Source: Egibacteraceae bacterium (lineage in GTDB: Bacteria > Actinomycetota > Nitriliruptoria > Euzebyales > Egibacteraceae). From it: 60,112 nucleotides of DNA. Under the pieces are notes generated by a model. The model made no database searches, had not been told where the DNA came from, and worked only from the letters and a program-made list of their open reading frames with translations. Positions within the stretch are counted from its first letter, which is position 1; each line of letters begins with the position of its first letter. The translations under genes and the position numbers were made by a program. Below, one piece after another: positions 38,553-39,720 of this stretch. Location of the stretch: the NCBI GenBank assembly GCA_040905805.1, contig JBBDQS010000001.1:5779-65890 (forward strand), read 5' to 3'.

Positions 38553-38630
38553 TAAAGCGGCGTTGCTCCTGTGACCGTAGCACGCGCCCCGCCACCACGA
38601 CAATCGCCCCCGATGAGTCCGACCGGCCGG

Positions 38631-38664
38631 GGCTGTGTCGTCCTGGTCGCGCAATCCGCGACCC
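38631..38664. repeat. Palindromic repeat, left copy, after the AbiEi-like gene
   Basis: 34 bases match the right copy (39675-39708) at 31 positions, in the same orientation. The centre is an inverted repeat (GGTCGCG CAAT CCGCGACC). It begins 3 bases beyond the stop of the AbiEi-like gene. The outer arms are less well paired here than in the right copy. Confidence 0.8.
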
Positions 38665-38667
38665 TGC

Positions 38668-39612
38668 CTACACGGGCTTGCGTGCGCGCGCCTGGTCGAG
38701 CGCGTCGCGGATCGTGCGGGCGACCACCTGTGGCGTCTTGACCACATCCTGGTAGGTGAACCGCAAGGGCACCCGACCCGAGGTGGCGTAGCGGTTGTGC
38801 TGCTGGGCATCCTTGCGCCGCTGGTGCGAAAGCGAGTGAAACCGCAGCCCGTCCAGCTCGGTCAGCACCGGCCATCCCGGCTCCCAGGACGCGTCGGCGA
38901 AGCCGATCCGCCCGCGCGCGTCGTAGACGGCCACGTTGTACGCGGGCTCGGGCAGGCCGAAGGCGGCGACGACGTCTCGGTCGAAGCGACGCTCCAGCCA
39001 TGACCAGAAGTCCTTGTCGGCGCCGGGCGCGGTGATCCGCAGGATCACGTCGGTCCCCGGCCGTCCTTGCCGCAGGTGCAAAGCGCGTCGGTGCATCCAC
39101 GGCCGGGTTGCCTTGCGGCCGCAGATCAGGTCGTCCACCACGGACATCGTGTCCGCCTCGCCAAGCTGGCCGGCCATGTCCACGGCGGTGCGGGTGCCGC
39201 TGGTCGCGGGGATGCCGTCGACCGTGACGATGTCGCAGCGCTCGAGCTCGCGCGTGCGGTGGACCGTGACCTTCGCGATCACCCGGCCATGCGCCGCAGC
39301 GACGGTCACGTCCGGCTCCTCCGGCACCTGGACACGGCCGATCCCGTGCAGTTTCAAGGCCCATGCGTGGGACGCGACCGCGCCGGGACCCCCCGCGAGC
39401 ACCGCCGCCATCAACTTCTCCTTCCACGTGTCCCGCGCCGACGTGAGTCGGTAGACGTCGGGGTGGACGCGCTCGATCAGGCCTCGTTGTCTCAACCGGT
39501 GGATCGCGTGCTTGCTGACGCCGGCCGCGCGTGCCTGCCACGTCGCGAAGTGCTGGTGCTGCCGGCTCGTGTCCCCGGTCAGGGCATCGAGCGGGTGGGT
39601 CGCCATCGCCAC
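38668..39612 (-). CDS. AbiEi-like antitoxin-domain protein with C-terminal DUF559/Vsr-like nuclease fold
   Basis: Precise function unknown. The N-terminal ~80 residues ([20 protein letters not shown] then [14 protein letters not shown]) match the winged-helix AbiEi antitoxin domain. The C-terminal third ([47 protein letters not shown]) matches the DUF559/Vsr endonuclease-like pattern with Asp and Glu-x-Asp where catalytic acids are expected. I use the GTG at 39612 (GAGG 6 bases ahead, 314 residues); the ATG at 39606 is also possible. No AbiEii-type toxin is adjacent. Two related palindromes flank it, and it interrupts nusB-pyrR, so it looks acquired. Confidence 0.8.
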
Positions 39613-39674
39613 AGTGAACCTCGGTGTGCGGCGGGGCAACGCTGTTCCCACCTGGCCTGTGCACAACAGCGGGG

Positions 39675-39720
39675 GCCTGTGTCGTCTTGGTCGCGGAATC
39701 CGCGACCCGGACGACACAGG
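39675..39720. repeat. Palindromic repeat, right copy, between nusB and the AbiEi-like gene
   Basis: A nested palindrome: outer arms CCTGTGTCGTC / GACGACACAGG (11 pairs, exact) enclose inner arms GGTCGCGG / CCGCGACC around AAT. The stem starts 7 bases after the nusB stop, so it could also act as the nusB terminator, though no U run follows. The first 34 bases are the related copy of 38631-38664. Confidence 0.85.

Follow-up and report, generated by a model that had tools for sequence, protein, structure and literature searches.

The window (the whole 60,112-nucleotide stretch of an Egibacteraceae contig that was analyzed) contains a gene on the minus strand that lies between nusB and pyrR and is bracketed by two related palindromes. 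We refer to it as the AbiEi-Vsr gene, after the two halves of its product. The features of the locus, in coordinates of the window, are as follows.

37920..38468, minus strand: pyrR, one of the two neighbors, a PyrR-type phosphoribosyltransferase gene (Pfam Pribosyltran, E 1e-20)
38633..38677, no strand: left (downstream) palindrome, of the same family as the right one, imperfect; the TAG stop codon of the AbiEi-Vsr gene falls inside it
38668..39606, minus strand: AbiEi-Vsr gene, 312 codons (312 aa), bracketed by the two palindromes
39607..39675, minus strand: presumed promoter and 5' leader between the start codon and the upstream palindrome
39676..39720, no strand: right (upstream) palindrome, a nested hairpin between the nusB stop codon and the AbiEi-Vsr gene
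39728..40153, minus strand: nusB, the other neighbor (Pfam NusB, E 3e-34), the 3' end of which abuts the right palindrome

A preliminary description of this DNA had placed the gene in the nusB-pyrR interval without a toxin partner, and both statements hold. The neighbors are housekeeping genes and form no defense island, and no AbiEii nucleotidyltransferase toxin gene was found adjoining the AbiEi-Vsr gene when the flanking genes were checked with Pfam. The gap between the start codon and the upstream palindrome is approximately 60 to 100 bp in most homologous loci. We also noted a PyrR-binding-site leader directly 5' of pyrR (38468-38562, minus strand; Rfam RF00515, E 0.0011), the score of which, 40.8 bits, falls under the gathering score of 54. 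This leader is conserved in G001, a genome of the same genus.

The palindromes are 43 to 45 bp long, and both lie at or directly 3' of stop codons. On the minus strand the right palindrome reads CCTGTGTCGTC-CG-GGTCGCGG-ATT-CCGCGACC-AA-GACGACACAGG. It is indeed a nested hairpin, as had been described, with a predicted fold of -37.9 kcal/mol (z -6.9) that was equalled by 0 of 200 shuffles; the fold of the left palindrome has a z of -0.9. The aligned copies (38629-38676 and 39673-39720) are 85% identical over 48 bp, a longer similarity than the 34 bp first noted, and lie 1044 bp apart, start to start. No T tract is present after the hairpins.

Predicted structure of the gene product

Pfam analysis of the window protein returned AbiEi_4 alone (PF13338, E 2e-8) and no DDE domain, and the PADLOC matches were to AbiEi antitoxin models only (E 1.6e-25). 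The nuclease domain escapes Pfam in this protein but is clear in its predicted structure; among 34 relatives, Pfam matched REase_MTES_1575 in 19 and DUF559 in 16. An AlphaFold model built from 34 homologs (mean pLDDT 93.7) predicts that residues 1 to 200 form a complete two-domain AbiEi fold, comprised of a winged helix and the AbiEi C-terminal domain, and that residues 200 to 308 form a Vsr/EDxHD-type nuclease domain. Structural matches to residues 1 to 200 are 6y8q, the AbiEi antitoxin of Streptococcus agalactiae (Z 12.6 over 182 residues), and 1zel (Z 9.0). For residues 200 to 308 they are 3hrl, the putative endonuclease NGO0050 of Neisseria (Z 12.7); 3r3p, the catalytic domain of I-Bth0305I, a homing endonuclease (Z 12.6); and 1cw0, which is Vsr (Z 10.9). 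The AbiEi_4 match, the predicted structure, and the relatives' DUF559 and REase_MTES_1575 matches together confirm the AbiEi-like winged helix and the DUF559/Vsr-like C terminus that had been proposed for this gene.

D238, H257, and D266 are present in 70 of 70 homologs, E205 in 66, and E250 in 65. This is the combination of residues that an active Vsr/EDxHD nuclease would be expected to have. The family to which the other half belongs is known for binding to pairs of 23-bp inverted repeats, as AbiEi and Rv2827c do (PMC7319586).

Paired flanking repeats across Actinomycetota

The relatives named here are metagenome assemblies of Nitriliruptoria and other Actinomycetota. A family profile (E 1e-10) detected at least one homolog in 154 of 296 Actinomycetota genomes, about half, and many of the 154 have seven or more, with approximately seven candidates scored per genome.

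At 75 homologous loci in the class, the 350 bp upstream of the gene were compared with the 350 bp downstream, and flanks with a score of at least 36 were counted as matched. This was the case at 43 loci. The controls gave 3 matches in 152 (2%) when flanks came from other loci of the same genome, 27 in 5398 for loci between genomes, 7 in 144 (5%) when flanks were shifted by 600 bp, and 0 in 28 at pyrR loci. Other classes of the phylum yielded 18 matched loci of 51, compared with 0.6% for mismatched and 3% for shifted flanks. Among the six loci added by a profile scan, L194, L195, and L197 (apparently L196 too) came from duplicates of genomes already used, and 15 of 48 loci were matched without the three duplicated genomes. 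These counts show that the repeats beside the gene are no accident, and the related palindromes that had been said to bracket the window gene are real. By flank score, 24 of 67 full-length homologs lack a matched pair, so that pairing is common, not universal.

The sequence of the matched palindromes changes from locus to locus. Similarity between palindromes goes with similarity between proteins only where the homologs are very close (at least 65% identity), and only the closest homologs have palindromes in common; overall, the Mantel r is 0.08, and 66 of 2000 permutations were as high. Coevolution of palindrome and protein across the whole family was rejected as weak, and an earlier apparent trend had come partly from shared neighboring genes. 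Separately, the upstream flanks of L250 (G167:C1) and L052 (G053:C99) were seen to contain short units repeated in tandem, 33 and 19 bp long, respectively, which do not fit the palindrome pattern.

Dispersal of the window palindrome in its own genome

A pattern search of the 3.6-Mb genome that contains the window (G000) found the window palindrome at five places. With a covariance model it was found at eight (E 7e-14 to 1.5e-4), which is a low copy number; two of these copies are on contig C1 and one each on C141, C48, C132, C146, C16, and C107. Several overlap the stop codon of an adjoining ORF. The same model found no copies in G001 and marginal matches only in other genomes. The palindrome thus is present elsewhere in its genome, in eight copies all told, and the gene is not core DNA in all relatives, the corresponding interval of G001 being empty.

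The C141 copy (L004:1494-1640) carries the 3' end of the AbiEi-Vsr gene (65 bp, 89%, E 5e-19) together with an internal fragment of that gene (30 bp, 90%, E 2e-6). These two fragments beside the palindrome are the remains of a decayed second cassette. The C48 copy is a solo palindrome that adjoins a gene read as mfd; the corresponding region of G001 has no palindrome, and synteny on its left side is broken.

The closest paralogs in the same genome are L008 (G000:C8) and L009 (G000:C118), with 58% and 41% identity, respectively. Each is bracketed by matched flanking repeats, the sequences of which differ from each other.

Cognate palindromes in relatives

Relatives of the window genome carry dispersed palindromes of their own. 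G001 has approximately 11 of its own type. A generic arm pattern was found 20 times in G024, 15 in G012, 7 in G029, 6 in G010, 5 in G019, and 5 in G028, and the reversed-pattern control gave 0. G035 has at least two paralog-specific palindrome families, of 10 and 29 copies, which were absent from the 11 and 7 other genomes searched for them.

A de novo test for repeats was carried out by self-BLAST of 391 kb of G035 (10% of the genome). Coding paralogs aside, this revealed exactly three families of dispersed repeats, each bracketing one AbiEi-Vsr gene of that genome; in one connected component, palindromic matches were mixed with coding ones, and it was interpreted by eye.

Covariation in the hairpins was significant only in G010, whether taken by itself or together with its congener G019, and not in the other families. 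The core of the G024 palindrome is not itself palindromic, and an RNA hairpin is therefore no general explanation.

Putative insertion sites in relatives

In G001, nusB and pyrR are next to each other, the pyrR leader is the same, and neither the AbiEi-Vsr gene nor a palindrome lies between them. An empty site had been expected to keep one palindrome, and this was not borne out in G001, the one other genome of the genus that was available. G001 is another species (the NusB proteins are 82% and the PyrR proteins 86% identical), and the difference in gene and palindrome could therefore instead be loss in G001. G008 and G029 have diverged homologs (32 to 36% identity, tblastn) in the nusB-pyrR interval with palindromes that are unrelated, and the orientation in G029 is the opposite one. 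This suggests separate insertions.

A second site was noted in the downstream flanks of L041, L062, L079, L036, and L019. There, diverged homologs recur in convergent orientation with one enzyme gene, at its 3' end; the protein of that gene ends ..MTEGGIL and is fumarase/aspartase-like, an identity assigned by eye from the C-terminal sequence only. The palindromes differ among the five loci. Either these homologs share an old position at which the palindromes change fast, or this gene end is preferred as a target. Taken together, the homologs at nusB-pyrR and at the fumarase/aspartase-type 3' ends make recurrent use of gene 3' ends likely.

Among these genomes, which number one per species and of which many are fragmentary, no transposition event, target duplication, or within-species polymorphic site was seen. 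Two other modes of carriage were tried and rejected. tRNA-linked insertion was rejected since there are no tRNAs in 30 homolog loci, and phage carriage since viral contigs hold no relatives of the gene and it has no PHROG match.

Spacing of neighboring palindromes

In many families of unrelated sequence, neighboring palindromes lie 71 to 73 bp apart, start to start, and otherwise approximately 62, 82, or 93 bp apart. This pattern was seen at L045, L034, L055, L066, L093, L266, and L268 and among dispersed copies in G024, G035, and G001. The spacings fit a period of approximately 10 bp, about one helical turn (R 0.67, reached by 0 of 3000 jittered sets). Tandem repeats in the far flanks have no spacing of this kind. 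The pattern was noticed post hoc in a sample assembled by hand, and the spacing is therefore a lead, though one that favors a protein bound to DNA in a fixed geometry over RNA terminators.

A probable REP-like palindrome family with a cognate gene

The preliminary description had offered two readings of this gene, a palindrome-associated mobile unit analogous to REP elements and a single-gene defense module. The first is the better of the two and is well supported by the dispersed cognate palindromes, the locus-specific pairs across the phylum, the unoccupied interval in G001, and the lack of a RAYT (TnpA-REP, the REP-associated tyrosine transposase). The second found no positive evidence, the PADLOC matches being to antitoxin models alone with no toxin partner seen. 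The description as a whole was partly supported, for its mobile unit.

We consider it probable that a dispersed, REP-like family of palindromes and its cognate gene form the unit, and the gene most likely encodes a nuclease dedicated to handling those palindromes. A wider proposal, which we believe and doubt in equal measure, is that a protein made of an AbiEi repressor and a Vsr/EDxHD homing-type nuclease, and thus not a transposase, spreads REP-like mobile palindromes phylum-wide, each paralog driving its own family. The AbiEi winged-helix half would bind the palindromes, probably as multimers on adjacent palindromes at helically phased spacing, and the Vsr/EDxHD half would cut DNA at or beside them. 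Repair of the break or recombination, templated by other copies, would then spread palindromes to new intergenic sites, often gene 3' ends, and occasionally the whole palindrome-gene-palindrome cassette would spread likewise. The upstream palindrome probably would serve also as the operator for self-repression by the protein. In this scheme it is the protein itself that would cause the spread, and both the movement of the unit and its nuclease action are inferred.

Other explanations have to be weighed against this. It is doubtful that the palindromes are older elements, spread by other means, that act as landing pads for a homing-type nuclease gene; the gene would invade by cutting a palindrome and being inserted during repair, with a copy left on either side. 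In its favor, there are one or a few genes beside many solo palindromes, and the nuclease domain is nearest that of a homing endonuclease. However, the palindrome families are paralog-specific, the 391 kb of G035 are without any gene-less family of non-coding dispersed repeats, no RAYT is at hand as an alternative spreader, and the G001 interval has no palindrome. We regard as unlikely a purely regulatory role, in which the palindromes would be AbiEi-type operators, hairpin terminators, or both, of an autoregulated DNA-binding protein, with copies that arose by ordinary duplication or recombination and were kept for regulation or nucleoid structure without any function in mobility. This would leave unexplained why a matching copy lies downstream of the gene, why dispersal is confined to particular genomes and paralogs, why the nuclease residues are invariant, and why there is a decayed second cassette, and the absence of a T tract speaks against it too. 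What recommends it is that the promoters of AbiEi genes contain paired inverted repeats to which the AbiEi proteins bind, that the right palindrome folds strongly, that copies lie at gene ends, and that their spacing suggests a protein complex.

An anti-phage role is very improbable. Here a single gene, AbiEi plus nuclease, would sense palindromic or hairpin DNA, and the repeats would be incidental, which matched flanks far above the controls contradict. The PADLOC AbiEi models do match, and the Vsr/DUF559/REase fold is found in restriction enzymes, but it is the antitoxin half of AbiE alone that is matched, the toxin gene is not adjacent, and the neighbors are housekeeping genes. The position of both copies at or directly after stop codons would suit two similar hairpins that merely terminate nusB and the next gene, alike by chance. 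That trivial explanation is hardly tenable; it is refuted by the controls, every one of which phylum-wide pairing far exceeds, and by a palindrome family that extends genome-wide.

Relation to known systems

Residues 1 to 200 share the full two-domain AbiEi fold with AbiE type IV toxin-antitoxin systems, whereas the window gene lacks an AbiEii toxin partner and has an extra nuclease domain. Residues 200 to 308 share the fold of Vsr, DUF559, and REase_MTES_1575 proteins. Unlike those, the nuclease here is fused to AbiEi, is neighbored by nusB and pyrR with no cytosine methyltransferase, and is encoded between bracketing palindromes. The EDxHD homing endonuclease I-Bth0305I is similar in the fold of its catalytic domain and in its E-D-xH-D type residues, and the analogy that we propose with it is a selfish spread through the cutting of DNA. 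The window gene differs in lying outside any intron, intein, or phage gene, in its AbiEi DNA-binding half, and in being bracketed by palindromes. We found no published description of an AbiEi-Vsr/palindrome system in full-text searches, which cover few subscription papers or preprints.

Few bacterial repeats are as common as REP palindromes. To our knowledge, the HUH-type RAYT is the only enzyme tied to them so far. In REP/RAYT systems, a single gene is bracketed by two copies of a dispersed short palindrome, and each gene has its own family (PMC2817692, PMC3733652). Similarly, the palindrome that brackets the window gene is found dispersed and clustered between genes of the same genome, with one family per gene. 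The differences are that the protein here is AbiEi plus Vsr-like, compared with the HUH/Y1 tyrosine transposase of RAYT, that no GTAG tag was seen with the palindromes, and that copy numbers, at 8 to 29, are below those of typical REPs. REPs driven by a RAYT were rejected as an explanation, since the RAYT domain (PF01797) was found in 1 of 61 genomes, as a fragment only. A known case of dispersed palindromes without a RAYT partner is that of the CGTC-tagged REPs, which have been reported in five phyla, Actinomycetota not among them, and "apparently lack a dedicated transposase" (PMC3733652). Those were reported without a dedicated enzyme (PMC3733652), whereas a bracketed enzyme gene exists here. 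If our reading is true, it would explain the purpose of the very common "AbiEi/DUF559" gene family of Actinomycetota and give a testable role to a family with domains classed only as antitoxin or DUF559. It would also make this a second REP-with-enzyme system, one that evolved independently and has no kinship with RAYTs, its nuclease and DNA-binding half being of quite another descent, and the REP life-style would have arisen more than once.
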